The notes under the pieces are model-generated. The model was not told the origin of the DNA. It did not search any database and saw nothing but the letters and a program-made list of their open reading frames with translations. Positions 9,136 through 25,792 of a stretch of 44,170 bases of DNA are shown here, in pieces. The position numbers and the translations under genes were made by a program. The stretch's first letter is position 1, and each line of letters begins with the position of its first letter. The stretch is from Oscillospiraceae bacterium. GTDB taxonomy: Bacteria > Bacillota > Clostridia > Saccharofermentanales > Saccharofermentanaceae. The stretch covers positions 1 through 44,170 of the forward strand of contig CADCJM010000033.1 of NCBI GenBank assembly GCA_902801755.1. The letters are read 5' to 3'.

Positions 9136-9137
9136 AG

Positions 9138-10861: not shown

Positions 10862-10900
10862 GTATTCACTTTTTGTTGATAGATTTTGGAGGGAAATAGT

Positions 10901-13198
10901 GTGAAAGCTTTGATCTTGAATTCCGGACTGGGACACAGGATGGGAGTTCTTACATCCGAGCATCCCAAGTGCATGACTGAAGTATCTGCGACAGATACTA
11001 TCCTTTCAAGACAATTAAAGCTCCTTGAAAGCAACGGAGTTACCGAAGTCGTAATGACAACGGGCTATTTCGATACGATCCTGGTGGATTACTGCCATTC
11101 ATTAGGGCTTCCTATGAATTTCACCTTTGTAAATAACCCGCTTTATGCTGAAACTAATTATATTTACAGCATTTATTGTGCGAGAGAATACCTGGATGAC
11201 GATATCGTGCTGATGCATGGAGACCTTGTTTTCGAATCTTCCGTGCTTGAAGACATACTTAATTGTCCGACAAGCTGTATGAAGGTATCTTCCACGATCC
11301 CGCTTCCTGAGAAGGACTTCAAGGCTGTTGTTAAGAACGGATTCGTTCAGAAGGTTGGCATTAACTTTTTTGACGATGCTATGGAAGCTCAGGCCCTTTA
11401 TAAGCTTAAGCGCGAAGACTGGAAGCTCTGGCTCGATAAGATCATTGAGTTCTGTGAGAACGATAACCGCAAGTGCTATGCCGAGAATGCTCTTAATGAA
11501 CTGAACGGCGCATGCAATATTGCTGCTTTTGATGTTCAGGACAGGCTCTGCTCAGAAATCGATAATCCGGAAGACCTCGCAGCCGTATCTGCAAGGCTTA
11601 AGGAAGTAGAGAACAGATCGGTCTATATGTCTTTTTCCACAAACGTTATCCACGGCGGACATATAGCGATCATCAAGAAAGCGGCCAGACTTGGAAAACT
11701 TACAGTAGGTGTTCTTTCAGATGAGGTAGTCGCAAGCTACAAGCGTGCACCGATCGTTCCCAGATCTGAGCGTAAAGCCCTCGTGGCAAGCATCGCAGGC
11801 GTTTACAGGGTAGTGGACCAGGACACATTGTCTTATGCGGACAACATAAGGAAATATAAGCCGGATATCGTTGTCCACGGTGATAACTGGAAGACAGGTT
11901 ACCAGAAGCCAATAAGGGAAGAGGTAATAAGCCTTCTTTCCGAATACGGCGGCAAACTTGTTGAATTCCCTTATGCGGCCGATGCGAAATATGCCTCAAT
12001 TGAGAATACTTTCAGCGGTGAGATCACAGATCCTGATAACAGCGAGATAGAACTGAATGTCTGGAAATCCGTTGAGGGAATAATCACTGCTGAGAATAAC
12101 TACGCTAAGGTCGATGACTGGATCAGATCTTCAGGCGCAAAAGCTATCCTTCTCGTCTGCGGACCCTCAATAAATGTTATGCCCATCAAGAGATATCTCG
12201 ACAGTGTTGAGTCAAGACTGGGCGTTAAGATCGTTCCTTTCAGCGATTTCTCACCTAATCCTTTATATGAATCAGTGGTTGAAGGCGTTAACGTATTTAA
12301 GAAGGAGAACTGTCAGGCGATAATCGCGATCGGCGGCGGGTCGGCCATGGATGTGGCTAAGTGCATTAAGCTCTTCTCCAATATGGATCCTGATAAGAAT
12401 TTCCTTAAGCAGGAGATCGTTGCAAATGATATTCCGTTCCTTGCAGTTCCGACTACAGCAGGAACAGGTTCTGAAGCTACCAGATTTGCGGTTATCTACT
12501 ATAACGGTGCAAAGCAGTCGGTAAACCACGAGAGCATAATCCCGAAGACAGTTCTTATGGACAGCAGCCTTCTTAAGACGCTGCCTCTTTATCAGAGAAA
12601 ATGCACGATGTACGATGCGCTCTGCCATTCGATTGAATCCATCTGGTCAGTAAACAGCACCGATGAGAGCAAGGCTTATGCGAGCGAGGCTATCCACCTC
12701 ATTTTGGACAATCTCGACGGTTATCTTGCTAATGACAAGGTCTCTAACCTTGAGATGCTCAATGCCGCTTATAAGGCCGGAAAGGCTATTAATATCACAC
12801 AGACAACTGCAGGACATGCTATGTGCTATAAGATCACATCACTCTATGGTCTTGCACACGGCCATGCCGCAATGCTCTGCGTTAAGTCTTTGTTCCCGTG
12901 GATGCTTGATAACATGGATAAATGCATTGATCCGAGAGGAAAGGAATATCTTGCCTCTGTAATGGATTATATTGCTGAGACATTCGGATTTAATGATCCG
13001 AAGCTTGTCTGCGCTTATCTCGATGAGTTATATAAGAGACTCAATATGTCCACACCTTCCGCAAACGAAGCAGAGCTGATGCTTTTAGCATCCTCAGTAA
13101 ATGTGGACAGGCTTAAGAACCATCCGATAGCACTTGATAAGGAATCTATCGAATATTTGTACCATAAGATCTTGGGCAATTCAGAATTGGAGGCATAA
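10901..13198 (+). CDS. Three-domain fusion: nucleotidyltransferase, HxGH cytidylyltransferase, phosphonoacetaldehyde-reductase-like Fe-ADH
   Basis: The start is GTG 10901 with GGAGGG just upstream; an in-frame TTG at 10886 overlaps that site. The 765-residue product has three parts. Residues 1 to about 235 are a LicC-like nucleotidyltransferase (LILNSGLGHRMG, SEHPKCM). Residues about 240-380 are a cytidylyltransferase-like Rossmann domain with HGGH at 251-254 and VVHGDNWK. Residues about 385-765 are an iron-dependent alcohol dehydrogenase (AIGGGSAMDVAK near 478, PTTAGTGSEATRF, metal ligands in DALCH, AGHAM and AHGHA). The ADH part most resembles reductases that turn phosphonoacetaldehyde into 2-hydroxyethylphosphonate. 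Together with PEP mutase downstream, this suggests one chain that makes a phosphonate alcohol and activates it with CTP. The exact substrates of the two transferase domains are inferred. Confidence 0.8.
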   Translation: MKALILNSGLGHRMGVLTSEHPKCMTEVSATDTILSRQLKLLESNGVTEVVMTTGYFDTILVDYCHSLGLPMNFTFVNNPLYAETNYIYSIYCAREYLDDDIVLMHGDLVFESSVLEDILNCPTSCMKVSSTIPLPEKDFKAVVKNGFVQKVGINFFDDAMEAQALYKLKREDWKLWLDKIIEFCENDNRKCYAENALNELNGACNIAAFDVQDRLCSEIDNPEDLAAVSARLKEVENRSVYMSFSTNVIHGGHIAIIKKAARLGKLTVGVLSDEVVASYKRAPIVPRSERKALVASIAGVYRVVDQDTLSYADNIRKYKPDIVVHGDNWKTGYQKPIREEVISLLSEYGGKLVEFPYAADAKYASIENTFSGEITDPDNSEIELNVWKSVEGIITAENNYAKVDDWIRSSGAKAILLVCGPSINVMPIKRYLDSVESRLGVKIVPFSDFSPNPLYESVVEGVNVFKKENCQAIIAIGGGSAMDVAKCIKLFSNMDPDKNFLKQEIVANDIPFLAVPTTAGTGSEATRFAVIYYNGAKQSVNHESIIPKTVLMDSSLLKTLPLYQRKCTMYDALCHSIESIWSVNSTDESKAYASEAIHLILDNLDGYLANDKVSNLEMLNAAYKAGKAINITQTTAGHAMCYKITSLYGLAHGHAAMLCVKSLFPWMLDNMDKCIDPRGKEYLASVMDYIAETFGFNDPKLVCAYLDELYKRLNMSTPSANEAELMLLASSVNVDRLKNHPIALDKESIEYLYHKILGNSELEA

Positions 13199-14092
13199 AT
13201 GGCAGAACTTACCAGAAAGCAATTCGATATCCTGGAAGCATTGGCTACTGAGGATAAGTCTTTTTCGCAGCGTGATCTCGAAAAGCACACAGGCTATTCA
13301 CTCGGCACAGTTAATAAGGCCGTAAAGGAACTTACGGATCTTGGCTACATCGAGAAGTGCAAGATCACTAAAGAAGGCATTGAAGCTCTTGAGCCTTACA
13401 GGGCAAAGAGGGCAGTCTTCATCGCTGCAGGCTTTGGTTCAAGAATGGTTCCGATCACATTAAATACTCCTAAGCCTCTGGTCAGAGTTCACGGCAGGAG
13501 GATCATTGATTCTCTTATCGACGCGTGCCTTGCTGCAGGCATCGAAGAGATCTATATCGTAAGAGGTTATCTGTCTGAGCAGTTTGACCAGCTTCTTTAT
13601 AAATATCCGATGATCAAGTTCCTGGAGAACCCCGCTTATAACGATGCAAATAATATTTCGAGCGCTCTGGTCGCTAGATATCTGCTCTCGAATGCTTATG
13701 TTCTGGAAGCTGACCTTGTCTGCAGCAATCCGGCAATCATTAAGAAATATCACTATACTTCAGACTTCCTCGCTATCAAGACGGAGCGTACGGATGACTG
13801 GTGCTTTACAGTCAAGGACGGCGTCATAGTGGAAGAAAAGGTTGGAGGCCTTGACTGCTGGCAGATGGTGGGAATCTCATACTGGAACGAGGCCGACGGC
13901 CATAAGCTCTCCAGAGATATCGAAGATGTATTCCAGACACCCGGCGGACGCGAGAGATACTGGGAGCAGGTACCTCTTGTTTACCGTAAGGAAAACTACA
14001 AAGTAGCTGTAAAAGAGTGCTTTGCCGAAGACATCGTTGAGATCGATTCTTTCAACGAGCTTAAGGCTCTTGATAAGAGTTACGACGTCTAA
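13199..14092 (+). CDS. Winged-helix domain fused to LicC-like nucleotidyltransferase
   Basis: 297 residues. Positions 1 to about 68 form a MarR-like winged helix (LTRKQFDILEAL, FSQRDLEKHTGYSLGTVNKA, LGYIEKCKITKEG). From about 72 a sugar-phosphate-type nucleotidyltransferase begins, with FIAAGFGSRMVPIT, NTPKPLVRV and the acidic VLEADLVCS. LicC and PntC enzymes of this fold make CDP-choline or CMP-2-aminoethylphosphonate. With PEP mutase and a PhnW-like transaminase next door, CMP-aminoethylphosphonate synthesis is the best guess. The start ATG directly follows the stop of the fusion gene, with GGAGG before it. Choline or another CDP-linked headgroup remains an alternative. Confidence 0.8.
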   Translation: MAELTRKQFDILEALATEDKSFSQRDLEKHTGYSLGTVNKAVKELTDLGYIEKCKITKEGIEALEPYRAKRAVFIAAGFGSRMVPITLNTPKPLVRVHGRRIIDSLIDACLAAGIEEIYIVRGYLSEQFDQLLYKYPMIKFLENPAYNDANNISSALVARYLLSNAYVLEADLVCSNPAIIKKYHYTSDFLAIKTERTDDWCFTVKDGVIVEEKVGGLDCWQMVGISYWNEADGHKLSRDIEDVFQTPGGRERYWEQVPLVYRKENYKVAVKECFAEDIVEIDSFNELKALDKSYDV

Positions 14093-14104
14093 TCTGGCAC
14101 TTAA

Positions 14105-14140
14105 GTTCATTTTCTTGGGCAATATTGGTGAAAAATGAAC
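14105..14140. repeat. Inverted repeat before the transaminase gene
   Basis: GTTCATTTT (14105-14113) pairs with AAAATGAAC (14132-14140) across an 18-base loop, starting 13 bases after the preceding stop. No T run follows, so it is more likely an operator or mRNA hairpin than a terminator. Confidence 0.45.
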
Positions 14141-14215
14141 GCGAATTTATAAAATATATTGTTTTTGCCTTCTGTTGTGCTAATATTGAGTTCGTTATAC
14201 TTGAAAATTGAACGC
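14130..14215 (+). promoter_or_regulatory. Near-direct repeats GAAAAATGAACGC / GAAAATTGAACGC upstream of the transaminase
   Basis: Two 13-base near-identical copies lie at 14130-14142 and 14203-14215, differing at one base. The second abuts the ribosome site CAGGAGG. A TATACT (14196-14201) sits between them as a possible -10. The arrangement suggests a regulator-binding region for the transaminase/PEP mutase unit, but no regulator is identified. Confidence 0.3.
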
Positions 14216-14229
14216 AGGAGGCATTTTTA

Positions 14230-15369
14230 ATGGATCCGATTGTTAAACGGAATGTTCTCTTAAATCCCGGTCCGTCCACAACGACTGATACGGTAAAGAT
14301 GGCACAGGTCGTACCTGATATCTGCCCCAGAGAAAAAGAATTCGCTTCGCTTATGAAGGGACTTCGTGAAGATCTCGTAAAGATCGTTCACGGTGATCTT
14401 GAGAAGTATACATCAGTGCTCTTCTGCGGTTCCGGCACGATCAATATCGATGTCTGCATCAATTCCTTGCTTCCTGAAGGCGGCAAAGTCCTCGTTGTTA
14501 ATAACGGCGCTTACAGCACAAGAGCTGTAGAGATCTGTGAATATTACGGACTTCCGCATATCAATCTCAAGTTTCCTGTAGATCAGAGACCTGACCTTGC
14601 CGTTGTTGAAGAGACATTGAAGAACAATCCTGATATCAAGCTTGTTCACACGACTCACAATGAGACAGGTACAGGCATCTTAAATCCGATCAGGGAGATT
14701 GGCGCACTTGCTCACAAGTATGGAGCTATCTTCACTGTTGATACAACGAGTACTTATGCTATGCGTCCTATCAACATTGAAGAAGACAATATCGATTTCT
14801 GCATGGCATCTGCCCAGAAGGGCCTTATGGCCATGACAGGACTCTCATTTGTAGTAGGCAACAGAGCCATCATCGAGAAGTCAAAGGACTATCCCAAGAG
14901 AAGCTACTACTGCAATCTTTTCCTTCAGTATGACTGCTTTGAGAAGACCGGAGAGATGCACTTTACTCCTCCTGTTCAGACGATCTATGCAGCTCTCCAG
15001 GGCATTAAGGAATACTGGGCTGAAGGCGAAGATGGCAAGTGGGCAAGACATACCAGAGTCTTTAACGCAATCAATGAAGGTCTTGATAAGCTCGGCTTTA
15101 AGCAGGTTATAAAGCCCGAATGGCGCACAGGCCTTGTAAGCACAGCGATCTATCCTGATGATCCCAACTGGAGCTTTGAGAAGGTACATGATTATTGCTA
15201 CGAGAGAGGATTTACCATCTATCCCGGCAAGATCTCTTCCACAAACACATTCAGACTTTGTGCTCTTGGAGCAATTGACGTAAAGGATATTGAGGACTTT
15301 TTCGCAGTTTTCGAAGAAGCACTTAAAACATACAACATTCAGATACCCGTAATTTATAAGGAGAATTGA
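14230..15369 (+). CDS. Class V aminotransferase, 2-aminoethylphosphonate--pyruvate transaminase-like (PhnW-like)
   Basis: A 379-residue PLP enzyme. Its start, RNVLLNPGPSTTTDTVKMA, and the following CPREKEF are typical of PhnW and alanine-glyoxylate aminotransferases. The PLP-binding lysine is Lys197 in SAQKGLMAM, preceded by the PLP-ring aspartate in FTVDTTSTY. In a biosynthetic setting PhnW homologues run towards 2-aminoethylphosphonate, taking phosphonoacetaldehyde and an amino donor. It lies 3 bases before the PEP mutase gene, which fixes the phosphonate context. Because no phosphonopyruvate decarboxylase is present, transamination of phosphonopyruvate to phosphonoalanine is an untested alternative. 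A CAGGAGG site precedes the ATG. Confidence 0.85.
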   Translation: MDPIVKRNVLLNPGPSTTTDTVKMAQVVPDICPREKEFASLMKGLREDLVKIVHGDLEKYTSVLFCGSGTINIDVCINSLLPEGGKVLVVNNGAYSTRAVEICEYYGLPHINLKFPVDQRPDLAVVEETLKNNPDIKLVHTTHNETGTGILNPIREIGALAHKYGAIFTVDTTSTYAMRPINIEEDNIDFCMASAQKGLMAMTGLSFVVGNRAIIEKSKDYPKRSYYCNLFLQYDCFEKTGEMHFTPPVQTIYAALQGIKEYWAEGEDGKWARHTRVFNAINEGLDKLGFKQVIKPEWRTGLVSTAIYPDDPNWSFEKVHDYCYERGFTIYPGKISSTNTFRLCALGAIDVKDIEDFFAVFEEALKTYNIQIPVIYKEN

Positions 15370-15372
15370 ACC

Positions 15373-16668
15373 ATGAAGACTGTTTATACCTGTTTCTGTA
15401 CTGATGTTATCCATGACGGACATCTGAACATCATTGAGAAGGCAAAAGAACACGGACGCGTCGTAGTTGGCGCTCTTACTGATGAAGCGCTCATCAAATA
15501 CAACAGATTCCCGACGATCTCTCTCGAAGAGAGGATCAAGCTTTATAAAGAGCTTGACGGCGTTGATGAAGTAGTTGTACAGAAGGATTTCATGTATAAC
15601 GATGTGATTGCAGAGATCAAGCCTGACTATGTCATCCACGGTGATAACTGGAAGAACGGCCCTGAGAGTGCCATCCGTGAGCATGTTGAAGCACTCCTTA
15701 AGGAATACGGCGGAGAACTCATCGACGTTCCTTATACATATAACGAGAAGGTAAAGAAGATCGACATGCAGCTTAGAGAAAAGCTCGCTATGCCTGAATA
15801 CCGCCGTAAGCGTTTAAGACAGCTTATTAAAATGACACCTATCGTTAAGACGATGGAGGCTCACAGCGGTCTTACCGGTCTTATCGTTGAGAAGACCGTA
15901 GTTGAGCATGAAGGCAAGCTCGAGCAGTTCGACGCTATGTGGATCTCATCTCTTTGCGATTCGACAGCAAAGGGCAAGCCTGATATCGAGCTCGTTGATA
16001 TGACATCCAGATTCAGGACTATCGACGATATCATGGAAGTTACGACAAAGCCTATCATCTTCGACGGTGATACAGGCGGACTTACAGAGCACTTTGTTTA
16101 TACAGTACGTTCCCTTGAGAGAATGGGCGTTTCTGCCGTAATCATCGAAGATAAGAAGGGCTTAAAGAAGAACTCTCTGTTCGGTACTGAAGTCAAGCAG
16201 ACACAGGCAACTATCGAAGAGATGAGTGCCAAGATCGCTGCAGGCAAGAGAGCCCAGCTCACAGATGATTTCATGATCATCGCACGTATCGAGAGCCTTA
16301 TCCTTGAGCAGGGCATGGAAGATGCTCTTGCAAGAGCAAAGGCATTCGTTGAGGCTGGCGCTGACGGTATCATGATCCACAGCCGCAAGAAGGATCCTGC
16401 TGAGATCCTTGAGTTCTGCGATAAGTTCAGAGCTTTCGACAAGACAACACCTATCGTAGTTGTACCTTCTTCATTCAATACGATCACTGAAGAAGAGCTC
16501 GCAGCTCACGGCGTTAATATCGTAATCTATGCTAACCAGCTCACAAGATCTGCTTTCCCTGCAATGCAGAAGACCGCTGAGGATATCCTTAAGTATCACA
16601 GAGCAAAAGAAGTCGATGACAGACTTATGTCCATCAAGGAGATCATCACTCTTATTGACGAGATATAA
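15373..16668 (+). CDS. pepM: Phosphoenolpyruvate mutase with N-terminal cytidylyltransferase-like domain
   Basis: PEP mutase rearranges PEP to phosphonopyruvate, forming the C-P bond that starts nearly all phosphonate synthesis. The C-terminal domain (about residues 150-431) is an isocitrate-lyase-type barrel carrying the diagnostic EDKKGLKKNS (259-268), matching the EDKxxxKxNS mutase signature. Metal-binding FDGDTGG is also visible. Residues 1 to about 145 form an HxGH cytidylyltransferase-like domain (TCFCTDVIHDGHLNI, HDGH at 14-17). It closely resembles the middle domain of the upstream fusion: VIHGDNWK and a following KEYGGELIDVPY are shared in near-identical form. The fusion suggests that the final phosphonate is activated by CTP. 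An AGGAGA site precedes the ATG. Confidence 0.93.
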   Translation: MKTVYTCFCTDVIHDGHLNIIEKAKEHGRVVVGALTDEALIKYNRFPTISLEERIKLYKELDGVDEVVVQKDFMYNDVIAEIKPDYVIHGDNWKNGPESAIREHVEALLKEYGGELIDVPYTYNEKVKKIDMQLREKLAMPEYRRKRLRQLIKMTPIVKTMEAHSGLTGLIVEKTVVEHEGKLEQFDAMWISSLCDSTAKGKPDIELVDMTSRFRTIDDIMEVTTKPIIFDGDTGGLTEHFVYTVRSLERMGVSAVIIEDKKGLKKNSLFGTEVKQTQATIEEMSAKIAAGKRAQLTDDFMIIARIESLILEQGMEDALARAKAFVEAGADGIMIHSRKKDPAEILEFCDKFRAFDKTTPIVVVPSSFNTITEEELAAHGVNIVIYANQLTRSAFPAMQKTAEDILKYHRAKEVDDRLMSIKEIITLIDEI

Positions 16669-16676
16669 CGCTTTTT

Positions 16677-16695: not shown

Positions 16696-16705
16696 TCTTG
16701 CGTGC

Positions 16706-16732: not shown

Positions 16733-16770
16733 AGCGTTGTTATTTGTGTTTATTGTTATATGGAGAACTG

Positions 16771-18198
16771 ATGAGTAAGGAAAATAACAACGTTACTGTT
16801 AACAGGGCAAAGACTAACAGTCAGGGCTCTAGATATATATTCCGCGGCTTCTGTTCGCTCATTATTACAGCGTTTGCTGCAGGAAGTTTTCTCTGGGTTT
16901 GGCTCGATTATATTTATAATGTCGAGAACCGTACCAAATACCTGAAAGGTATTGGTAACATCGGGATGTCAGTTATCATCTACATCATGATGATTATCAT
17001 CTTCGGCAGATTCTTCCACGCGTTCAGCATCGGTGTCGAGCGAATTGCTAAGCAGGTCGTCAGTGCTGCTATGGCTTTCTTTGTAACGGATCTTGCAGAA
17101 GTACTGGTATCTGCAACGATCCAGAACAACTTCAGATATATGCTGGATTTTGCATGGCGTTATATGCTTCTGGCTCTTGCCCAGTCAGTTGTCTTAGGTG
17201 TTTTCGTGATCATCATGAACTTCCTTTACAGGAAGATCATCCCGCCTTTGCAGATCACACTTATCTATGGATATCACCCCAATAATATCGAGGACAAGCT
17301 CGCATGCCTGCCGCACAAATACCAGGTCGTAAAGAGAGTTAAGTTCGACGATCCCGGTGTCGATCTCGAATCAGTTATAAATGAGAGCTCCAGCGTTCTT
17401 ATCAACGACGTTCCTTCACAGATCGAGAATAAGATCATCAAGCTGTGCTTCGACAATGATGTCAGGACTTATGTTGTTCCGAAGATCGCTGATATTATCT
17501 TGAAGTGCTCAGACAGTATCAACGTTATCGATACGCCTTTGTATTTGAGCCGCAACTTCGGCATGAGCTTCGGTCAGAGATTTGCGAAGAGAGCAATGGA
17601 CATTATCCTTTCAGGCCTTGCACTTATCGTATTCAGTCCAATTTTCCTTATAACGGCACTTGCCATCAAGATCGAAGATCACGGTCCTGTATTCTTCAAG
17701 CAGGAGCGAGTAACTAAGGACGGCAAGCACTTCATGATCCTTAAATTCCGTTCCATGATCGTTGATGCCGAGAAGGACGGACGTCCGCATCCGGCCGGAG
17801 AGAAGGACGACAGAATAACCAAGGTCGGCAACATCATCCGTGCATGCAGAGTAGACGAGTTGCCTCAGCTCTTTAATATTTTCGCTGGTGACATGAGCAT
17901 CGTAGGCCCCAGACCGGAGCGCTATGAGCACGTAATCAAGTACACCCAGGACATCCCTGAATTCAAGTTCAGAGAGAAGGTCAAGGGCGGCCTTACAGGT
18001 TATGCCCAGGTATACGGCAAGTACAATACTTCAGCTCTTGATAAGCTGAAGCTCGACCTTACATATATTGCAAACTACAGCGTTTTACTTGATTTCCAGA
18101 TCATTTTCGAGACCATTAAGATCTTGTTCCAGAAAGAAAGCACAGAGGGCTTTGACAGCGAGCGTGCGAAAGAAATGCACGACGCAGACTGCAAATAA
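16771..18198 (+). CDS. Exopolysaccharide polyprenyl-phosphate sugar-1-phosphate transferase
   Basis: The initiating enzyme that moves a sugar-1-phosphate onto undecaprenyl phosphate at the inner membrane face. The start is ATG 16771 after GGAG; the upstream TTG frame adds nine residues without a ribosome site. The 475-residue protein has about four N-terminal membrane segments, a CoA-binding-like linker with DVPSQIENKII, a further membrane hairpin (AMDIILSGLALIVFSPIFLI), and the catalytic PF02397 domain. That domain shows FFKQERVTKDGK, KFRSM, DELPQLFNI, MSIVGPRPER and KGGLTGYAQV. This is the WcaJ/PssY-type organisation. The sugar is probably a hexose or N-acetylhexosamine and cannot be fixed. 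Confidence 0.93.
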   Translation: MSKENNNVTVNRAKTNSQGSRYIFRGFCSLIITAFAAGSFLWVWLDYIYNVENRTKYLKGIGNIGMSVIIYIMMIIIFGRFFHAFSIGVERIAKQVVSAAMAFFVTDLAEVLVSATIQNNFRYMLDFAWRYMLLALAQSVVLGVFVIIMNFLYRKIIPPLQITLIYGYHPNNIEDKLACLPHKYQVVKRVKFDDPGVDLESVINESSSVLINDVPSQIENKIIKLCFDNDVRTYVVPKIADIILKCSDSINVIDTPLYLSRNFGMSFGQRFAKRAMDIILSGLALIVFSPIFLITALAIKIEDHGPVFFKQERVTKDGKHFMILKFRSMIVDAEKDGRPHPAGEKDDRITKVGNIIRACRVDELPQLFNIFAGDMSIVGPRPERYEHVIKYTQDIPEFKFREKVKGGLTGYAQVYGKYNTSALDKLKLDLTYIANYSVLLDFQIIFETIKILFQKESTEGFDSERAKEMHDADCK

Positions 18199-18251
18199 TT
18201 GATATAATTGAATTGACGTAACGGCTTTTCTGATTATTGGTGCAAAGGCTT

Positions 18252-19697
18252 ATGGACAATTCATTTGACGTGATCATCATCGGAGCAGGCGTAACAGGAT
18301 GTGCGGTGGCAAGAGAGCTCTCGCGCTATGATTGTTCTGTGCTCGTTATCGAGAAGGACGAGGATGTCTGCTGCGGCACTTCCAAAGCAAACAGCGGCAT
18401 AGTTCATGCGGGCTACGATGCAAAGCCCGGAACTCTCAAGGCAAAGATGAATATTAGAGGCAATGAGATGATGACATCTCTTTGCGAAGAACTGGATATT
18501 CCGTTTAAGCGGATAGGGTCGCTTGTCGTATGTACGGATGAATCTCTCCGTTCAGGTATCGAAGAACTTTATGCAAGGGGAATTACCAATGGGGTTCCTG
18601 ATCTGAAGATCCTTGAGTCTGATGAAGTCCGCGAATTAGAACCCAATATCTCAGATGACGTTGTCTGCGCGCTCTATGCACCCACTGCAGGCGTTATCTG
18701 TCCTTTCAGACTTAATATCGCGCTGGCTGAATGCGCTGCTCAGAATGGTGTTGAATTCAAGTTCGATACACAGGTGACAAATATCAGATCTGATGGTGAT
18801 CACTGGATCATTGAGACGTCAGATAAGACATATAATGCCCGTACTGTGATCAATGCGGCAGGGTGCCACGCTGATGATATACATAATCTCGTTTCTGAAA
18901 ACAAACTTCATATAACGCCCAGAAGAGGCGACTATATGCTGCTTGACCGTTCCCTGGAAGGCTTTGTTAAGCATGTTATCTTCCCTCAGCCTACGAAAAT
19001 GGGTAAGGGAATCCTTGTAACTCCTACAGTTCACGGGAACACTCTGGTCGGTCCTACTGCTGTTGATATCGAGAGCAAGGATGAAGCGCCGGTTACAGCT
19101 GAAGGCCTTGTTAAGGTGCAGGAAGGCGCTGTGAAGAACGTTAAGGGATTACCTCTGAAGCAGGTGATTACAGGCTTTTCGGGACTCCGCGCTCATGAAG
19201 ACGGCGGTGAATTTATCCTTGAAGAAGCAGAAGGGTGTCCCGGATTCTTTGACTGCGCAGGCATAGAATCACCCGGACTTACGGCATGTCCTGCTATCGG
19301 TGAATACATGGCTTCGCTTGTATCTTCCAGGTTGTCATTAAAGCAGAAAGATAACTGGAACGGCATCTGCAAAGATGTAATAAGACCGTTTGAATTGCCG
19401 CCTGAAGAGCGCGAAAACCTGATCTCCAACAATCCTGAATACGGAAGGATAATCTGCCGCTGTGAGACCATTACCGAAGGTGAGATCATTGATGCAATAA
19501 GACGGCCTTTGGGCGCAAAGTCACTTGACGGCGTTAAGAGAAGGACCAGAGCCGGAATGGGCAGATGCCAGGGAGGCTTCTGTTCACCGAGAGTTATGGA
19601 TATCTTAAGCAGGGAACTGGGACTTCCTCTTGAAGCCATAACCAAGAGCGGCGGAAATTCAAAGATAGTTACAGGGAGGACCAAAGATGAAGGCTGA
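18252..19697 (+). CDS. GlpA-like FAD-dependent oxidoreductase with C-terminal [2Fe-2S] BFD-like domain
   Basis: Probably oxidises glycerol-3-phosphate or a related 2-hydroxyacid. The start is ATG 18252 after AAAGG (481 residues). The FAD fold begins DVIIIGAGVTGCAVARELS and continues through SGIVHAGYDAKPGTLKA, a GlpA/GlpO/LhgO-type sequence. The last 80 residues carry IICRCETITEGE and GMGRCQGGFCSP, a four-cysteine BFD-like iron-sulfur site found in Clostridia members of this family. It overlaps the next gene by 11 bases. The trio with the following two genes recurs in Firmicutes glycerol metabolism. Its place inside a glycan locus is unusual. Confidence 0.85.
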   Translation: MDNSFDVIIIGAGVTGCAVARELSRYDCSVLVIEKDEDVCCGTSKANSGIVHAGYDAKPGTLKAKMNIRGNEMMTSLCEELDIPFKRIGSLVVCTDESLRSGIEELYARGITNGVPDLKILESDEVRELEPNISDDVVCALYAPTAGVICPFRLNIALAECAAQNGVEFKFDTQVTNIRSDGDHWIIETSDKTYNARTVINAAGCHADDIHNLVSENKLHITPRRGDYMLLDRSLEGFVKHVIFPQPTKMGKGILVTPTVHGNTLVGPTAVDIESKDEAPVTAEGLVKVQEGAVKNVKGLPLKQVITGFSGLRAHEDGGEFILEEAEGCPGFFDCAGIESPGLTACPAIGEYMASLVSSRLSLKQKDNWNGICKDVIRPFELPPEERENLISNNPEYGRIICRCETITEGEIIDAIRRPLGAKSLDGVKRRTRAGMGRCQGGFCSPRVMDILSRELGLPLEAITKSGGNSKIVTGRTKDEG

Positions 19698-20940
19698 TAT
19701 CGTAATCGTCGGCGGCGGTCCTGCCGGTCTTGCAGCTGCTATAGCCGCAGCAAAGGAAGACAGTAATCTCAATATCCTGATCCTCGAGCGCGATCATGAA
19801 CTCGGCGGTATCTTAAACCAGTGCATTCATAACGGTTTTGGCCTTCATACTTTTAATGAGGAACTGACAGGACCTGAGTATGCGGCAAGGTTCGAAGAAC
19901 AGTTATACGGTCTTGGAATCCGTTATATGCTTGATACTATGGTTCTTGATGTCGCATCTTCAGCCGTTACGGCAGTTAACAGCAAAGAAGGCGTGTTTAC
20001 GGTTGAGTGCGGAGCAATCGTGCTCTGCATGGGCTGCCGCGAGCGTCCGAGAGGAGCTCTTAATATTCCGGGGCTCAGGCCTGCAGGCGTTTTCACAGCA
20101 GGAACTGCCCAGCGTCTTGTAAATATCGAAGGCTTTATGCCGGGCAGAGAAGTCGTTATCCTTGGCTCCGGTGACATCGGTCTGATAATGGCAAGGCGCA
20201 TGACATTGGAAGGCGCAAAGGTAAAGGCTGTATGCGAGCTTATGCCTTATTCCGGCGGCCTCAAACGTAATATTGTCCAGTGTCTTGATGATTTTGATAT
20301 CCCATTGCTCCTGTCTCATACGGTAATCGATATCAAGGGCAAGGAGCGTGTAACATCAGTCGTTATTGCTGAAGTTGACGATCATTTAAAGCCGGTTCCG
20401 GGTACAGAGCAGGAGATCTCCTGCGATACGCTGCTGCTGTCCTGCGGTCTTATTCCTGAGAATGAACTCTCAAGATCTGCAGGCGTTAAGATAAATCCCG
20501 CAACTAACGGTCCTGTAGTTAATGAATCCTTTGAGACTTCGATCCCCGGCGTCTTTGCATGCGGCAATGTGCTTCATGTACATGACCTCGTCGACTATGT
20601 ATCGGAAGAATCCGGCAGGGCGGGAAGAAGTGCCGCCAGATTCGTGAAAGCTAATAAAGCCGGAGAAGGCCCTGTCATTAACATAAAGAATGGAAACGGC
20701 ATAAGATATACTGTTCCGTCCTTTGTCCGCGTCAATGAATTAGATGGTGATCTTGTCATCAGGTTCAGGTCCGGAAACGTCTATAGAGACAGCTATATTA
20801 ATGTCCTTTTCGATGGAGAGACAAAACTTCACAGAAGAAAGCCGATAATCACACCGGGCGAGATGGAGCAGGTGATCTTAAAGAAAGAAGACCTGACGGG
20901 CGCTATTTCTGAGATCCTCATTGAGATTACGGAGAACTGA
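19687..20940 (+). CDS. NAD(P)/FAD-dependent oxidoreductase, partner of the GlpA-like protein
   Basis: 417 residues with two dinucleotide-binding folds: FAD at the N-terminus (IVIVGGGPAGLAAAIAAAKE) and NAD(P) in the middle (VVILGSGDIGLIMARRM near residue 157). CMGCRERPRGA precedes the second fold, and GVFACGNVLHVHDLVDYVS is the C-terminal FAD-contact motif of the pyridine-nucleotide disulfide oxidoreductase family. No redox-active CxxC of thioredoxin-reductase type is seen. It likely passes electrons between the GlpA-like subunit and NAD or another carrier. It overlaps the preceding gene and lies one base before the DUF1667 gene, indicating one complex. Confidence 0.85.
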   Translation: MKADIVIVGGGPAGLAAAIAAAKEDSNLNILILERDHELGGILNQCIHNGFGLHTFNEELTGPEYAARFEEQLYGLGIRYMLDTMVLDVASSAVTAVNSKEGVFTVECGAIVLCMGCRERPRGALNIPGLRPAGVFTAGTAQRLVNIEGFMPGREVVILGSGDIGLIMARRMTLEGAKVKAVCELMPYSGGLKRNIVQCLDDFDIPLLLSHTVIDIKGKERVTSVVIAEVDDHLKPVPGTEQEISCDTLLLSCGLIPENELSRSAGVKINPATNGPVVNESFETSIPGVFACGNVLHVHDLVDYVSEESGRAGRSAARFVKANKAGEGPVINIKNGNGIRYTVPSFVRVNELDGDLVIRFRSGNVYRDSYINVLFDGETKLHRRKPIITPGEMEQVILKKEDLTGAISEILIEITEN

Positions 20941-20941
20941 T

Positions 20942-21307
20942 ATGGAAAAGCGTGAACTTACATGTATCAACTGTCCTATGGGATGCCGTATAACTGTCAC
21001 GATGGAAGGTGACGATATTATCGCTGTCGAAGGAAATACCTGCAAAAGAGGCTTTGTATATGCCTGTAATGAGGTCAAATCGCCGGTAAGGACTGTCACG
21101 ACTACGATCAAGGTCATAGGCGGCAATGTTGACCGCGTGTCATGTAAGACTAAAGAGCCGGTCCCGAAGGATAAGATTTTCGAGGTCATGGAAGCAATAA
21201 ACAAGGCCTCCTGTAAGGCTCCGGTAGCTATCGGTGACGTGCTTATCGAAGACTGCGCAGGCACAGGAATCCCTGTTATTGCGACAAAGTCGGTGTCTCC
21301 TGCCTGA
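20942..21307 (+). CDS. DUF1667 cysteine-rich protein
   Basis: A 121-residue protein starting at ATG 20942 after GGAG. It has the N-terminal cysteine set CINCPMGC followed by a fourth cysteine in EGNTCKRG. The spacing (C-x2-C-x3-C-x19-C) resembles the N-terminal iron-sulfur site of molybdopterin oxidoreductases. DUF1667 proteins are the usual third member beside the GlpA-like and FAD/NAD oxidoreductases. The family's function is not settled; an electron-transfer role is inferred from the cysteines and neighbours. Confidence 0.88.
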   Translation: MEKRELTCINCPMGCRITVTMEGDDIIAVEGNTCKRGFVYACNEVKSPVRTVTTTIKVIGGNVDRVSCKTKEPVPKDKIFEVMEAINKASCKAPVAIGDVLIEDCAGTGIPVIATKSVSPA

Positions 21308-21325
21308 ATTGCCTTTTTTATTATT

Positions 21326-21353
21326 TTGTCTTTATTAGAATTTTTGATATTAT
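21326..21353 (+). promoter_or_regulatory. Candidate sigma-A promoter before the GT2/LicD operon
   Basis: TTGTCT (21326-21331) and TATTAT (21348-21353) have a 16-base spacer in an AT-rich gap between DUF1667 and the GT2 gene. This suggests that a new unit begins with the GT2 gene. Confidence 0.45.
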
Positions 21354-21387
21354 CTAGTGAGATTTAAGTAAAAGAGGAAGCCGTCAG

Positions 21388-22206
21388 ATGGATAATTATT
21401 CTGTTCTCATGAGTGTTTATCACAAAGAAAAAGCAGAATTCTTACGTGAAGCATTGGACAGCATCTGGAATCAGACTGTTCAGACTGATGACTTTATTCT
21501 CGTTTGTGACGGTCCCCTTAACGAAGAATTAGACAGTGTTATTGCCGAGCATGAGAAGGCTCATCCCGGTGTTCTTCATGTAATCAGGCTGGAGAAGAAC
21601 GGTGGGCTCGGAAACGCGCTCAATATCGGTATCAAGAAGTGCAAGAACGAGCTTATTGCCCGTATGGATTCTGATGATATAAGCTATCCCGACAGATGCG
21701 AGAGACAGCTTAAGATATTTGAGACAAGAGATGATGTCGATCTTGTCTCAGGCACAATCGAAGAATTCATCGACACAAAGGATGTCATCGAGTCCAGAAG
21801 AGAACTCCCCGTTGAGCCTGAAGAGGTCTACGAATACTGCAAGACCAGATGTCCTTTTAATCATCCCTGCATAATGTACAAGAAGACCGCGATCGAAGAA
21901 TCGGGCGGTTATATTCCGTTTAAGCTTGAGGATTACTATCTCTGGGTACGTGTTCTGCAGCATGGCTTCAGAGGATATAACATTAAAGAGTCACTTCTTT
22001 GGATGCGCGCCGGCGCGAATATGTATAAGAGAAGAGGCGGAAAGGCTTACGCTGAGGCTGTAAAAGAACTCTTCAAGTATATGAGAGATACCGGCTTTAT
22101 TACGAAGGGACAGTATTTCAAATGCACGACAGTCAGATGTGCCGGTGCTTTGGCGCCCAACTGGCTCCGCAAATTTTTATATAAGACGCTTTTGCGTAAG
22201 ACATAA
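21388..22206 (+). CDS. Family 2 glycosyltransferase
   Basis: A 272-residue GT-A enzyme. The N-terminus YSVLMSVYHKEKAEFLREAL is the GT2 start of the subgroup found in capsule loci. It continues with FILVCDGP, NGGLGNALNIGI and the metal-binding ARMDSDDISYPDR. A hydrophobic, basic C-terminus (LRKFLYKTLLRKT) may help membrane association. It precedes the LicD gene by 11 bases and heads the GT2/LicD/TarI-like/SDR/LicD operon. It probably adds the sugar that one of the LicD enzymes then decorates; the donor is unknown. Confidence 0.88.
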   Translation: MDNYSVLMSVYHKEKAEFLREALDSIWNQTVQTDDFILVCDGPLNEELDSVIAEHEKAHPGVLHVIRLEKNGGLGNALNIGIKKCKNELIARMDSDDISYPDRCERQLKIFETRDDVDLVSGTIEEFIDTKDVIESRRELPVEPEEVYEYCKTRCPFNHPCIMYKKTAIEESGGYIPFKLEDYYLWVRVLQHGFRGYNIKESLLWMRAGANMYKRRGGKAYAEAVKELFKYMRDTGFITKGQYFKCTTVRCAGALAPNWLRKFLYKTLLRKT

Positions 22207-22217
22207 GGGCTGTATCT

Positions 22218-23120
22218 ATGGCAATGAAGAAGCAGAAGGATATTTATTCTAAAGTATTTAACGAATTCGTATTCTCGGATGAGCAGATCGAGCTCCTCCA
22301 CAATACGCTTTTCGACATGCTCATGGATATTAAGAGAGTATGCGAAAAGCATGACATCACATTCCTTTTGTCAGGCGGTTCCATGCTTGGAGCTGTCCGC
22401 CACAAGGGCTTTATCCCGTGGGATGACGATCTTGATATCATGATGCTCCGTTCTGAATATGTTAAGTTCAGAGAGGCTGTGCTTTCCGAAATGACGGACA
22501 AGTACGATCTCGTTGAACCTCTGGACGGCAAGTATACAAACAAGAAGCCGAAGCTCTTTTTGAAGAATTCTGTATTTACGGAAGTCGTATATGCAGGGCT
22601 TCCGGCAGAATACAGACGCGTATTCATCGATGTCTTCATTATCGAAGATATCCCTGCTTCGGCATCTAAGAGGAAGTTTATAGGCAAGATATACGATTTT
22701 GCTTTCCACGCTTCGAGCTTTATCGGCGACTATAAGTATCCGTCACCGATCATATTGGAGAAGGGCAAGACTGACGAGGAAGTCAGGAAATACTATGCTT
22801 CCAGACGCAGGATGGGCGGGCTTTTGAATGTGTTCTTCGGAATGAGATTTTATCTTAAGATCTGTTCCAAGTTGGATCACGCCAAGAAAGAGACCGGCAT
22901 TGTCGGCGTTCCTTCAGCTATCAGCTATAACCGTGAGGTTTTCGAGAAGAAGCTCTTTACGGACTTAATTGAGGTAGAATTTAACGGTGAGATGTTTAAG
23001 ATCCCTTCGGATTACGATTCGTATCTTAAGAATCTCTATAAAGACTATATGAAGCTCCCGCCCGAGAAGGACAGGGTAATTCACAGTTGTGCGGAATTCA
23101 GGGTAAATACGGAGGTCTGA
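22218..23120 (+). CDS. LicD family phosphotransferase (first copy)
   Basis: LicD proteins transfer phosphocholine or similar phosphorylated headgroups from CDP/CMP donors to glycans. This 300-residue copy carries the hallmark core near residues 50-75: LLSGGSMLGAVRHKGF followed by IPWDDDLDI, the metal-binding acidic cluster. RRVFIDVFIIEDIP follows further on, a conserved LicD segment. The ribosome site is weak, so translation may be coupled to the upstream GT2 gene. Given PEP mutase and CMP-transferase domains in the same locus, aminoethylphosphonate or hydroxyethylphosphonate is a plausible headgroup. Phosphocholine or a polyol phosphate cannot be excluded. Confidence 0.88.
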   Translation: MAMKKQKDIYSKVFNEFVFSDEQIELLHNTLFDMLMDIKRVCEKHDITFLLSGGSMLGAVRHKGFIPWDDDLDIMMLRSEYVKFREAVLSEMTDKYDLVEPLDGKYTNKKPKLFLKNSVFTEVVYAGLPAEYRRVFIDVFIIEDIPASASKRKFIGKIYDFAFHASSFIGDYKYPSPIILEKGKTDEEVRKYYASRRRMGGLLNVFFGMRFYLKICSKLDHAKKETGIVGVPSAISYNREVFEKKLFTDLIEVEFNGEMFKIPSDYDSYLKNLYKDYMKLPPEKDRVIHSCAEFRVNTEV

Positions 23121-23121
23121 C

Positions 23122-23835
23122 ATGAGTAATGTAGCGTTATTGATCGCAGGCGGTTCTGGCAACAGAATGAATCAGGATATCCCCAAGCAGTTCATCACTG
23201 TAAATGAGAGACCTGTTATCGTTTATACACTTGAGGCATTCGAGAATCATCCCGAGATCGACTGCATCGCAGTAGTCTGCATCGAAGGCTGGGACCAGGT
23301 GCTTTGGGCTTATGCCAAGCAGTTCAATATCTCAAAGCTCAAATATGTTGTTCCCGGCGGCAAGAACGGCCAGGATTCAATAAGAAATGGCGTTATGGAG
23401 CTCGAAAAGCATTTCGAACCTGATGACCTGGTCCTCATCCACGATGCAATCCGCCCTATGGTAAGTGCTGAGATCATTTCCGATAACATCAGAGTCGCAA
23501 AGCAGTACGGCAACGCAATTACTGTTATCCCTTGCGCTGAGGCCATGATGCAGACCGAAGACGGCCTTGTTTCTGTCGGAAGCTACCCCAGAGACAGACT
23601 TAAGAGAACACAGACACCGCAGGCTTTCAGGATCGGCGATATCTGCGATCTCCACAGAAGAGCCCTTGAGGCCGGAATCACCAATTCCGTAGCATCCTGC
23701 ACCCTGAAGATCGAGATGGGCGAACAGGTCTATTTCTCAGCAGGCTCCGAGAAGAATATCAAGCTTACAACAGTTGAAGATATCGATATCTTCAAGGCCC
23801 TGCTCGCTGCAAAACGTTCTGACTGGCTTAAGTGA
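23122..23835 (+). CDS. IspD/TarI-like cytidylyltransferase
   Basis: A 237-residue CTP-dependent cytidylyltransferase. The start LLIAGGSGNRMNQDIPKQFI is the CTP-binding signature, and LIHDAIRPMVS and RLKRTQTPQAFR are shared by IspD and TarI. IspD makes CDP-methylerythritol for isoprenoids; TarI makes CDP-ribitol for teichoic acids and capsules. The LicD and SDR neighbours, and the absence of ispF, favour a TarI-like role in activating a polyol phosphate for the glycan. A GGAGG site precedes the ATG by a few bases, right after the LicD stop. Confidence 0.85.
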   Translation: MSNVALLIAGGSGNRMNQDIPKQFITVNERPVIVYTLEAFENHPEIDCIAVVCIEGWDQVLWAYAKQFNISKLKYVVPGGKNGQDSIRNGVMELEKHFEPDDLVLIHDAIRPMVSAEIISDNIRVAKQYGNAITVIPCAEAMMQTEDGLVSVGSYPRDRLKRTQTPQAFRIGDICDLHRRALEAGITNSVASCTLKIEMGEQVYFSAGSEKNIKLTTVEDIDIFKALLAAKRSDWLK

Positions 23836-23843
23836 GGAAGCAT

Positions 23844-24902
23844 ATGTTATACGGTAACTCCACATGGATATCTGACATTGATAAGGTCATTGAAGTCGTT
23901 CCGGAATTAGACAGACTTGCCGGAAAGTCCCTCATGATCACAGGCGCTGCAGGACTTGTATGTTCTGCGATAGTCGATATCATCTTCCGCTACAATGACA
24001 CGCACGATCAGAAGATCCAGGTCCTTGCTGCAGGAAGATGGCCTGAAGAGATGTCCGGAAGATTCGGTGATCTCGTAAACAGAGATGATTTTACCTTCGT
24101 TGTTTACGATGCTTCGAAAACAGATAACGTTATAGACGTTCATGCTGACTTCATCATTCACGGCGCGAGCAATGCATCACCCAACATGATCGTAAAAGAA
24201 CCTGTTGAGACCATGATGAGTAATTTCCTCGGAATGAAATATCTTTTGGATTACGCAAAAGAGCAGGGAACAGAGAGGATCCTCTATATCAGTTCAAGTG
24301 AGGTTTATGGCGAGAAGGAAGGCTCCGAGCCTTATAAAGAAGGCCAGTACGGATATATCGACCTTCTGAATTCCAGAAATTCTTATTCTGTAGGAAAAAG
24401 GGCGGCAGAAACGCTCTGTGCTTCCTATGCAGATGAATACGGAATGGAATCAGTAATTGTACGTCCGGGTCACATCTACGGACCTACGGCTTCACCTTTC
24501 GATAAAAGAGTTGCATCCGCATGGTCTTATGCTGTTGCAAAGGGTGAAGACATCGTAATGAAGAGTGACGGATCACAGATCAGAAGTTACTGCTATTGCC
24601 TTGACTGCGCATCCGCAATGCTCAAGGTCCTTCTCTGCGGTGAGAACTGCCACGCATATAACATCTCTAATCCTGATTCTATCATCAGCATTAAGGATAT
24701 GGCCGAGATCCTTTCAAAGAGCGCCGGAGTTGAGCTCCGCATGGAACTTCCGACAGAAGAAGAGCGCAAGGGCTTTAACCCAATGAGCAATTCCTCTTTG
24801 GAATCTGCAAGCCTTACAGGCCTTGGCTGGCACGGATGTTTTGATGCTGAGACAGGCTTTGGCCATACGGTTAAGATCTTAAAGGAAACCTACGGTCTAT
24901 GA
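23844..24902 (+). CDS. NAD-dependent epimerase/dehydratase (extended SDR)
   Basis: The start is ATG 23844, after GAGGA with a 5-base spacing; an earlier in-frame GTG overlaps the upstream stop. The 352-residue protein has a Rossmann nucleotide-binding loop in SLMITGAAGLVCSAIVD. The catalytic set is the serine in LYISSSEVYGEKE and the Tyr-Lys of NSYSVGKRAAE, followed by VRPGHIYGPTASP. It probably works with the TarI-like enzyme to make or modify the nucleotide-linked polyol or sugar of this operon. Whether it acts on a CDP-linked or UDP/dTDP-linked substrate is not visible. It overlaps the next start by ATGA. Confidence 0.85.
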   Translation: MLYGNSTWISDIDKVIEVVPELDRLAGKSLMITGAAGLVCSAIVDIIFRYNDTHDQKIQVLAAGRWPEEMSGRFGDLVNRDDFTFVVYDASKTDNVIDVHADFIIHGASNASPNMIVKEPVETMMSNFLGMKYLLDYAKEQGTERILYISSSEVYGEKEGSEPYKEGQYGYIDLLNSRNSYSVGKRAAETLCASYADEYGMESVIVRPGHIYGPTASPFDKRVASAWSYAVAKGEDIVMKSDGSQIRSYCYCLDCASAMLKVLLCGENCHAYNISNPDSIISIKDMAEILSKSAGVELRMELPTEEERKGFNPMSNSSLESASLTGLGWHGCFDAETGFGHTVKILKETYGL

Positions 24903-25792
24903 ACCTTGAAGAAGAGATAAGAGACGGTTATAAAGTCACTGCTGAAATGAAGAAACTATGGTCTGTCCAGATGGATATCCTGGAACAGATCGATAAGATC
25001 TGCAAAAAGCACAACATTACCTACTATGCAGACGGCGGCACGCTTTTGGGCGCTGTAAGACATAAGGGCTTTATTCCGTGGGATGACGATCTCGACGTCC
25101 AGATGTACAGGGACGATCTTGAGAAGTTCTGCAAGGTTGCAAAGGAAGAACTCAAGTATCCTTATTTCCTTCAGACATGGGAGACTGAGGAAGGCTTCTA
25201 TCCCTGGCTTTTCAAGGTAAGAAAGAGCGATACTGCATGCTTTACCGAATGGGAGATCGAGAACAATCCCGGTGGCAACCGCGGTATATTTGTCGATATC
25301 TTCCCGGCTTATAACGTTCCTGACAGCAAGCTTGCATTTGCTTTGCAGACTAATAAACTTAAGCGGCTGAAGTTCCTTTTCGAGTGCTATCAGACAGACA
25401 GGGCGCTCTCATTATACGGTGCGCGCAAGACATCCAAGCGTAAGATAGCGCAGGCAATCTGGAAGATATGCAAGATCTTCACGTCTTCAGATAAGATCTG
25501 CAGAAAGTTCATTAAGACGGCTGCCAAGGTCGGGCCTGAAACAAAGAAGCTCGGTTATGTAACTGTTTTCCCAGGGAACAAGAGATATATCTGGGACAGG
25601 GAATGGTTCGATGGTACCATTGATCTTCCGTTTGAGGACCGCACGGTTCCTGCGCAGACCGGTTATGAGAAGAGGCTTGAGCAGGATTTCGGTGACTGGC
25701 GCACTCCGATGCAGGTCAAATCAATGCATTCAACTCTTCATTACTCCTGTGAAATACCGTATGAAGAGTTTCTTAAGACATTGAAAAAATAA
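24899..25792 (+). CDS. LicD family phosphotransferase (second copy)
   Basis: 297 residues with the same LicD core as the gene at 22218: ADGGTLLGAVRHKGF and IPWDDDLDVQM near residues 42-65, then NRGIFVDIFPAY. Outside the core the two copies differ considerably (here WLFKVRKSDTACF), so they probably use different donors or acceptors. The ATG overlaps the SDR stop as ATGA, and a strong hairpin ends the unit 9 bases later. As the last gene of the polysaccharide locus it likely performs a late decoration step. Confidence 0.88.
   Translation: MNLEEEIRDGYKVTAEMKKLWSVQMDILEQIDKICKKHNITYYADGGTLLGAVRHKGFIPWDDDLDVQMYRDDLEKFCKVAKEELKYPYFLQTWETEEGFYPWLFKVRKSDTACFTEWEIENNPGGNRGIFVDIFPAYNVPDSKLAFALQTNKLKRLKFLFECYQTDRALSLYGARKTSKRKIAQAIWKICKIFTSSDKICRKFIKTAAKVGPETKKLGYVTVFPGNKRYIWDREWFDGTIDLPFEDRTVPAQTGYEKRLEQDFGDWRTPMQVKSMHSTLHYSCEIPYEEFLKTLKK

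Follow-up and report, generated by a model that had tools for sequence, protein, structure and literature searches.

The contig CADCJM010000033.1 of an Oscillospiraceae bacterium (assembly GCA_902801755.1) was analysed over its whole 44,170 nucleotides, here called the window; it is contig C33 of a 1.92 Mb genome that is divided among 102 contigs and is 89% complete. The window probably carries a phosphonate cluster of the Pnt type within a predicted exopolysaccharide locus, in which cytidine monophosphate (CMP) esters of both 2-aminoethylphosphonate (AEP) and 2-hydroxyethylphosphonate (HEP) are predicted to be made from one pool of phosphonoacetaldehyde, at least one of them likely ending up on the surface glycan. 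The cassette consists of four genes on the + strand. The first encodes a three-domain protein (10886-13198), hereafter the tri protein, that joins a MobA domain (about 10886-11590), a Fom1-type CTP_transf_like domain (about 11591-12001) and an iron-type alcohol dehydrogenase (Fe-ADH, about 12002-13198). It is followed by a LicC/PntC-type nucleotidyltransferase with a MarR-type helix-turn-helix (HTH) domain (13199-14092; PF12802, PF00483, PF12804), an AEP transaminase of the PhnW/AepZ type (14230-15369) and a fusion of a CTP_transf_like domain with phosphoenolpyruvate (PEP) mutase (CTP-PEPM, 15373-16668). Related genomes resolve these genes into an AEP arm, formed by the HTH-nucleotidyltransferase and PhnW, and an HEP arm, formed by the tri protein.

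In the proposed route PEP mutase would form phosphonopyruvate, as its equivalog model and intact motif indicate, and a decarboxylase from another contig, also assigned by an equivalog model, would convert this to phosphonoacetaldehyde; the passage through phosphonopyruvate decarboxylase to that aldehyde is described in PMC6697681. Both arms need the decarboxylase, because both start from phosphonoacetaldehyde. In the AEP arm transamination of the aldehyde by PhnW would give AEP, to be activated with cytidine triphosphate by the HTH-nucleotidyltransferase, a role suggested by the enzyme's family, its Glu/Glu pocket and synteny. In the HEP arm the Fe-ADH would reduce the aldehyde to HEP, and activation of HEP would fall to the MobA domain, which shares its polypeptide with the Fe-ADH and has His where the amine-facing Glu would be. 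The original prediction, made from this DNA alone, had proposed amino and alcohol branches, CMP-type activation and a polysaccharide setting; comparative evidence supports the branches and the setting, and the protein families support the activation.

PEP mutase, transaminase and decarboxylase

The PEP mutase scores 409.2 bits with TIGR02320 (cut-off 319.55) and carries EDKKGLKKNS from residue 259, in agreement with the EDKXXXXXNS criterion for Pnt. It is the only PF13714 match in the genome, and the fused domain has HDGH at residue 14 as its HXGH motif; the tri protein has HGGH. The transaminase scores 458.2 bits with TIGR03301 (cut-off 360.8), and its best match in the PDB is the AEP transaminase half of the Treponema denticola PntC-AEPT protein (6pd1, 280.8 bits, against 206.7 for PhnW 1m32). 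A degradative PhnW was rejected, as the protein reaches 281.4 of the 400.8 bits of TIGR02326 while passing TIGR03301. The PEP mutase with intact motif and the PhnW-like transaminase that had been predicted are thus borne out, as is an alcohol dehydrogenase, found as the C-terminal domain of the tri protein. The four nucleotidyltransferase domains were also recovered: the tri protein has two, the HTH protein (13199-14092) has one, and the fourth belongs to the PEP mutase fusion.

No phosphonopyruvate decarboxylase was found in the window, an absence that the original prediction did not mention. A search of the genome itself for TPP_enzyme_N gave three places, of which the one on contig C53 is a decarboxylase of 380 amino acids with 460.6 bits for TIGR03297 (cut-off 312.5). 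Among 188 genomes of the order, at a threshold of 1e-60, PEP mutase occurs in 94, the decarboxylase in 92 and both in 87. The closest relatives of the PEP mutase in named genomes, among the matches listed, come from metagenome-assembled genomes (MAGs) labelled Saccharofermentans sp., Ruminococcaceae bacterium and Clostridiales bacterium (97-99% identity). Fusions 82-88% identical to that of the window are also found in Ruminococcus, Schwartzia and a Spirochaetales MAG (L017, L020 and L080; L denotes loci and G genomes), and these sequence identities suggest that the AEP cassette is either strongly conserved or horizontally transferred.

Two separable arms in related genomes

Close relatives were represented by the 80 best loci of at least 576 confirmed around the window's PEP mutase, and core genes were taken from a separate count rather than from neighbour clustering. 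The usual order in these 80 loci is HTH-LicC, PhnW, CTP-PEPM and decarboxylase. PhnW is present in 76 of the 80 and the decarboxylase in 71; a LicC-type gene accompanies PhnW in 61 of the 76 loci, MobA in just five. The HEP cassette has the order MobA-CTP-PEPM, Fe-ADH and decarboxylase, found in 18/18 of the examined loci with a MobA-CTP-PEPM fusion. PhnW matches at 1e-60 were obtained in none of these 18 genomes but in 63 of 76 other genomes with PEP mutase (Fisher p 2e-11, relatedness ignored).

With residues 1-372 of the tri protein as query, matches were obtained in 45 of the 188 genomes at 46 places. Forty of these were examined as contexts besides the window; G106, G062 and the second contig of G121 lay outside this set, and G084 and G070 were added later. 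Seventeen genomes were counted as having the Fe-ADH fusion, including G156 as CTP-FeADH, where the fusion is cut by the contig end. PEP mutase is present in all 17, the decarboxylase in 16 and PhnW in 15. The fusion lies in a hybrid cluster of both arms in eight, and in the other nine no PEP mutase was found within the examined stretch. Fe-ADH is present in 43 of 44 MobA loci, or 39 of 40 once four doubly fetched loci are counted singly, and the lone locus without it (L138) is at a contig edge. As the fusion is found away from PEP mutase, the HEP module is separable from that gene, while MobA stays with Fe-ADH. A natural dissection is provided by G114 and G124, which have the tri protein and no PhnW match. 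Ruminococcaceae bacterium YRB3002, whose record bears no MAG label and which is thus probably an isolate, has PhnW, PEP mutase, the decarboxylase and the tri protein, and its examined 10-kb flanks showed no LicC-type gene.

The gene set and order of the window recur in six related genomes (G068, G118, G122, G063, G067 and G059) and partly in a seventh, G124; the grouping is therefore not due to chance. A tentative reading, somewhat on the doubtful side, is that the tri protein is a plug-in, that is an HEP cassette minus its own PEP mutase that draws on the aldehyde of an AEP pathway already in place, and that a change of Glu to His founded a class of HEP-specific MobA-type cytidylyltransferases. 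If so, three cytidylyl-activated headgroups (AEP, HEP and an alditol phosphate) would be offered to one surface glycan. The fusion also suggests how a phosphonate pathway could acquire another product while keeping to one PEP mutase.

Domains and pockets of the cytidylyltransferases

The mechanical start of the tri gene is a TTG at 10886, and the length of relatives (760-765 amino acids) points to translation beginning a few codons downstream, close to 10901. Its N-terminal half is 60-70% identical to MobA-CTP-PEPM proteins of the order. The fold of the MobA domain is closest to PntC. The best PDB match of the CTP domain is 5x3d, which we take to be the Fom1 domain, with 133.2 bits; the domain fused to PEP mutase scores 101.4 bits with the same structure. 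Each arm has nucleotidyltransferases of two folds. The Fe-ADH domain shares 26-62% identity (median 57%) with 24 collected stand-alone Fe-ADH domains. Two Butyrivibrio fibrisolvens proteins of 621 amino acids (P0065 and P0067), with MobA and Fe-ADH and no CTP_transf domain, are possibly an intermediate architecture. A large protein encoded beside the tri gene in five examined relatives (cluster 15) was considered as a transferase and set aside; it has 7-9 predicted membrane stretches, matches no Pfam family and has no counterpart in the window.

The HTH-nucleotidyltransferase matches 1jyk (92.6 bits) and 6pd1 (49.2 bits) in the PDB and has the motif GXG(T/S)RX4-8PK as GFGSRMVPITLNTPK at residue 78; the form GXG(T/S)RX4-9PK is found in 63 of 65 HTH-LicC relatives. 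The MobA domain departs from the motif, with His replacing Thr/Ser in GLGHRMGVLTSEHPK. The strict motif occurs in 8/19 tri and 3/19 MobA-CTP-PEPM relatives, and GXGXR..PK in 19/19 of each. In T. denticola PntC, Glu104 and Glu196 lie near the AEP amine. The corresponding residues of the HTH-nucleotidyltransferase are Glu170 (codon 13706-13708, + strand) and Glu256, whereas those of the MobA domain are His111 (codon 11216-11218, + strand) and Glu200, and the MobA domain was therefore not classed as an AEP-specific PntC. The Glu104 position is His in 41/41 distinct MobA domains and Glu in 61/63 distinct HTH-nucleotidyltransferases; the Glu196 position is Glu in 41/41 and 61/63 respectively. Gene content distinguishes the arms in many genomes and one residue separates the MobA-type enzymes, so that headgroup specificity becomes a simple question for in-vitro work. 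A phosphocholine (Lic) pathway was rejected on account of Glu in place of Asp at the LicC positions and the lack of any choline kinase (PF01633) match in the 89%-complete genome, the latter also an argument against assigning the LicC-like protein to phosphocholine.

Several observations weigh against the assignment of two arms. The decarboxylase is on a separate contig in seven of the eight hybrid-cluster genomes (G000, G124, G063, G118, G067, G122 and G059) and was not found in the eighth, G068, which is 77% complete. The Fe-ADH scores 146.9 bits with TIGR03405, the phosphonate Fe-ADH model, against a cut-off of 423.7 and was therefore not classed as a member. The split between His and Glu is probably a single ancestral difference rather than many independent events. 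The CTP_transf lineages track the fusion partner rather than the presumed headgroup: 94 CTP-PEPM domains separate from 39 linked to MobA or Fe-ADH, two further CTP domains falling outside both groups (midpoint root; support 0.83 and 0.60), and CTP-PEPM is also present in the PhnW-less loci L139 and L158. Fom1-type domains were accordingly dropped as markers of the HEP arm. No LicC-type gene was seen in 15 of the 76 PhnW loci, several of which are short contigs. G070 and G084 have no PhnW match at 1e-60, yet profiles found a PhnW-family protein in both, so that the strict search can miss distant relatives, and such relatives could exist in the 18 HEP genomes beyond the examined stretches. A LicC-type match also lies near eight of the 18 HEP loci (L142, L144, L146, L148, L150, L151, L152 and L154); an amine may therefore be made by another route in these eight genomes. 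The one LicC-type gene of the eight that was scanned, in L154, is a fusion of a MobA-type nucleotidyltransferase with a class I/II aminotransferase. Together, the LicC-type neighbours and the PhnW-family proteins missed at 1e-60 leave 'HEP only' unproven for the 18 genomes.

Nucleotidyltransferase-aminotransferase fusions occur near phosphonate cassettes in L154 (16083-17888) and L175 (3249-5126), and possibly represent another amine headgroup. In G124 there is no HTH-LicC gene between the tri and PEP mutase genes, and a fusion of this kind is directly upstream of the tri gene.

LicD proteins and the predicted alditol block

Two of the three LicD matches in the genome (PF04991, cut-off 22.6) are in the window, LicD1 at 22218-23120 (136.1 bits) and LicD2 at 24899-25792 (144.8 bits). 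The two LicD proteins of the polysaccharide locus that had been claimed are present, as is the initiating transferase at 16744-18198. Between them, and not remarked upon in the original prediction, are a fifth cytidylyltransferase of the IspD/TarI-like type (23122-23835; PF01128) and an extended short-chain dehydrogenase/reductase (SDR, 23832-24902; PF01370; PDB 8v4g, 128.9 bits) of a predicted cytidine diphosphate (CDP)-alditol block. A PDB search placed the IspD-like protein closest to the ribitol-5-phosphate cytidylyltransferase 4jis (120.1 bits); with NF001183, the model for D-ribitol-5-phosphate cytidylyltransferase, it scores 157.2 bits, below the cut-off of 166.

Homologues of LicD1 (1e-60 or better) were found in 29 genomes. 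The PEP mutase gene (pepM) is within 15 kb on the same contig in 10 of these and not in 17, among them G068 and G124, where LicD1 and pepM are on different short contigs; two genomes have no pepM match. In 14 of 15 relatives with at least 50% identity the IspD-SDR pair follows the LicD gene, and six of the 14 have pepM on another contig; the 14-19 kb examined around these six contain neither PEP mutase nor MobA, Fe-ADH or PhnW (the G159 stretch ends inside IspD). The six nearest relatives outside phosphonate loci, like LicD1 itself, are all in blocks of family 2 glycosyltransferase (GT2), LicD, IspD and SDR, and a more distant member in G093, a genome with no PEP mutase match, has the same neighbours. 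Since LicD1 is coupled to IspD-SDR even where pepM is not near, a CDP-alditol is its likely donor, and judged by this linkage the group that LicD1 transfers is likely an alditol phosphate, to whose synthesis the IspD-like enzyme and the SDR would contribute. Against this, relatives 38-46% identical to LicD1 are beside pepM-cassette genes in L013/G114, L016, L169 and L204/G077. The examined loci yielded members of the LicD2 clade (at least 47% identity) in hybrid clusters and in G102 only, one LicD gene of G102 being placed between MobA and FeADH. LicD2 is thus the best candidate for a phosphonate transferase in the window, albeit a weak one.

The idea that the two LicD proteins serve two phosphonates did not survive, given the IspD-SDR blocks around LicD1 and its nearest outside relatives, and given G148 and G156, which have no LicD match despite having PhnW and the Fe-ADH module. 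A link of LicD1 with the HEP arm, raised by the LicD1 locus of G063 that is free of IspD-SDR, was likewise rejected; G063 has the pair elsewhere on the same contig, and L016 has a LicD of the LicD1 clade and no match to the tri protein.

Alternative explanations

A real though lesser possibility is that both LicD proteins use CDP-alditols and that phosphonates reach the surface through another transferase encoded elsewhere, for example one resembling CDP-glycerol glycerophosphotransferase (PF04464). The IspD-SDR linkage of LicD1, including the six relatives with a distant pepM, and the LicD-free genomes G148 and G156 fit this view. So does the occurrence of one PF04464 family and one family of YidC-like membrane proteins near 12 of the 18 HEP cassettes, and among 76 other pepM loci (42 of full length) of PF04464 near 24, YidC-like near 22 and both near 21. 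These identifications come from Pfam on one representative per family and set, and the counts are lower bounds, as the clustering of neighbours took in antisense frames (cluster 5). Such proteins (YidC-sulfatase in one scanned case) were seen beside both HEP and AEP cassettes, in L146-L157 and in L055, L058 and others, and are candidates for a LicD-independent transfer route. However, none of 37 scanned proteins of the window matches PF04464, the G102 LicD between MobA and FeADH belongs to the LicD2 clade, and LicD is directly beside pepM-cassette genes in the four loci with more distant LicD1 relatives. The same PF04464 and YidC-like neighbours, together with acyltransferase and acyl-ligase genes downstream in the window (33026-36294), would agree with a product other than a decorated exopolysaccharide, namely a phosphonolipid or a polymer resembling teichoic acid. 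This is unlikely, given that the cassette of the window and its syntenic relatives is between GDP-fucose genes and the initiating transferase, in the company of GT2, Wzy_C and LicD.

The Fe-ADH might instead reduce some other aldehyde, in which case there would be no HEP arm and the tri protein would activate a different phosphate ester. The score far under the TIGR03405 cut-off and PDB matches spread over many alcohol dehydrogenases speak for this, but the invariable position of a separate Fe-ADH between the MobA-CTP-PEPM fusion and the decarboxylase, the median identity of the tri Fe-ADH to the stand-alone domains and the presence of PEP mutase in every fusion genome make it distinctly improbable. 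Least probable by far is a secreted small-molecule phosphonate with the polysaccharide locus as an incidental neighbour. A domain of the Fom1 type does occur in fosfomycin biosynthesis (PMC6697681), but the four cassette genes (10886-16668) encode no transporter or peptide-tailoring domain and the polysaccharide surroundings are conserved in several genomes.

The surrounding locus

The main genes from 804 to 25792 are on the + strand, and the phosphonate cassette and LicD genes are almost gapless. Upstream the order is GT2, a Wzy_C/O-antigen ligase-like membrane protein (1560-2792; PF04932), an AraC regulator and a GDP-fucose set assigned by Pfam (3802-10808), consisting of Gmd (from 3802), Fcl-like (4847), ManC-like (5795), ManA-like (7121), glycosyltransferase (8089) and phosphomannomutase-like (9138) genes. 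The GDP-fucose pathway and Wzy-like protein of the original prediction are therefore present, but outside the interval in which it had placed them. After the cassette come the polyprenyl-phosphate sugar-phosphate (initiating) transferase (PF02397; TIGR03025 310.7 bits, cut-off 295.55), a GlpO-FAD-DUF1667 trio, a GT2 (21388-22206; PF00535) and then LicD1, the IspD-like gene, SDR and LicD2. The trio, also new here, is made up of a GlpO/GlpA-like FAD oxidoreductase with a BFD domain (18237-19697; PF01266, PF04324; NF033460 316.4 bits, below the cut-off of 460), an NAD/FAD oxidoreductase (19687-20940; PF07992) and a DUF1667 protein (20921-21307), the sole PF07892 match of the genome. In the genus DUF1667 and PEP mutase are within 15 kb in 11 of the 23 genomes having both, and seven of the 11 are of the hybrid clade; genes of this type also adjoin pepM in L023 and L024.

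Shortly downstream of the cluster is a protein with BspA-type leucine-rich repeats (26636-28834). A second co-directional run (30884-39971) has GT2, an alpha/beta hydrolase, an AMP ligase with acyl-carrier domain, an acyltransferase matched over two stretches, a DegV/FakB-like protein, a hydrolase and a FakA/YloV-like protein; these lipid-related genes are conserved in G063 and G118. It is followed by an 841-amino-acid protein in which a xylose-isomerase-like TIM barrel is joined to an AMP-binding ligase (40247-42772), 96% identical in two relatives. In L160 and L163 a multi-pass membrane protein of 790 amino acids is encoded between the phosphomannomutase and tri genes; G063 also has a GDSL lipase there, and the window lacks both. 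A promoter and terminator scan gave counts close to the shuffled mean and was not used.

Comparison with known systems

Most of the bacterial capacity for phosphonates is thought to decorate cell surfaces, and the steps after AEP have been called enigmatic (PMC6697681). According to PMC9381506, phpC is found in just over 20% of phosphonate-producing genomes. Neither a nucleotidyltransferase-FeADH fusion nor a two-armed AEP/HEP surface cluster was found in the titles and abstract openings of open-licence PubMed Central papers among the matches listed, and the phrase 'alcohol dehydrogenase' is absent from the main text of PMC6697681, which inventories PEP mutase fusions. The triple fusion MobA-CTP-PEPM, of which that study counted 42 (e.g. 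in Ruminococcus flavefaciens 007c), shares its N-terminal half with the tri protein; in the window, however, Fe-ADH is the fusion partner of this half, and PEP mutase resides in its own CTP-PEPM protein, of the kind seen in AEP cassettes. Fom1 of Streptomyces wedmorensis, a CTP:HEP cytidylyltransferase fused to PEP mutase (PMC6697681), also has the CTP_transf_like-PEP mutase fusion, but the window has two such domains, one of them on the Fe-ADH protein, and they lie among surface polysaccharide genes rather than in an antibiotic cluster. For the alditol block the counterpart is TarI or ISPD with the LicD-domain proteins FKTN and FKRP, a pairing established for CDP-ribitol (PMC4873967). The window likewise has an IspD/TarI-like cytidylyltransferase beside LicD, although its partner is an extended SDR and its NF001183 score is below the cut-off.

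The closest known system is the Pnt pathway of T. denticola, Atopobium rimae and Olsenella uli (Rice et al. 2019, PMC6697681), with which the present system has in common a PEP mutase with nucleotidyltransferases, a decarboxylase, an AEP transaminase, a LicC-like PntC and nearby LicD-like or glycosyltransferase genes. It differs in the second arm, with Fe-ADH fused to two nucleotidyltransferase domains, in the unlinked decarboxylase, in the N-terminal HTH of the PntC-like enzyme and in the MobA domain with His at the Glu104 position. The cluster is likely to work as the Pnt pathway does, with a second arm added, and is likely a new form of a known decoration pathway.

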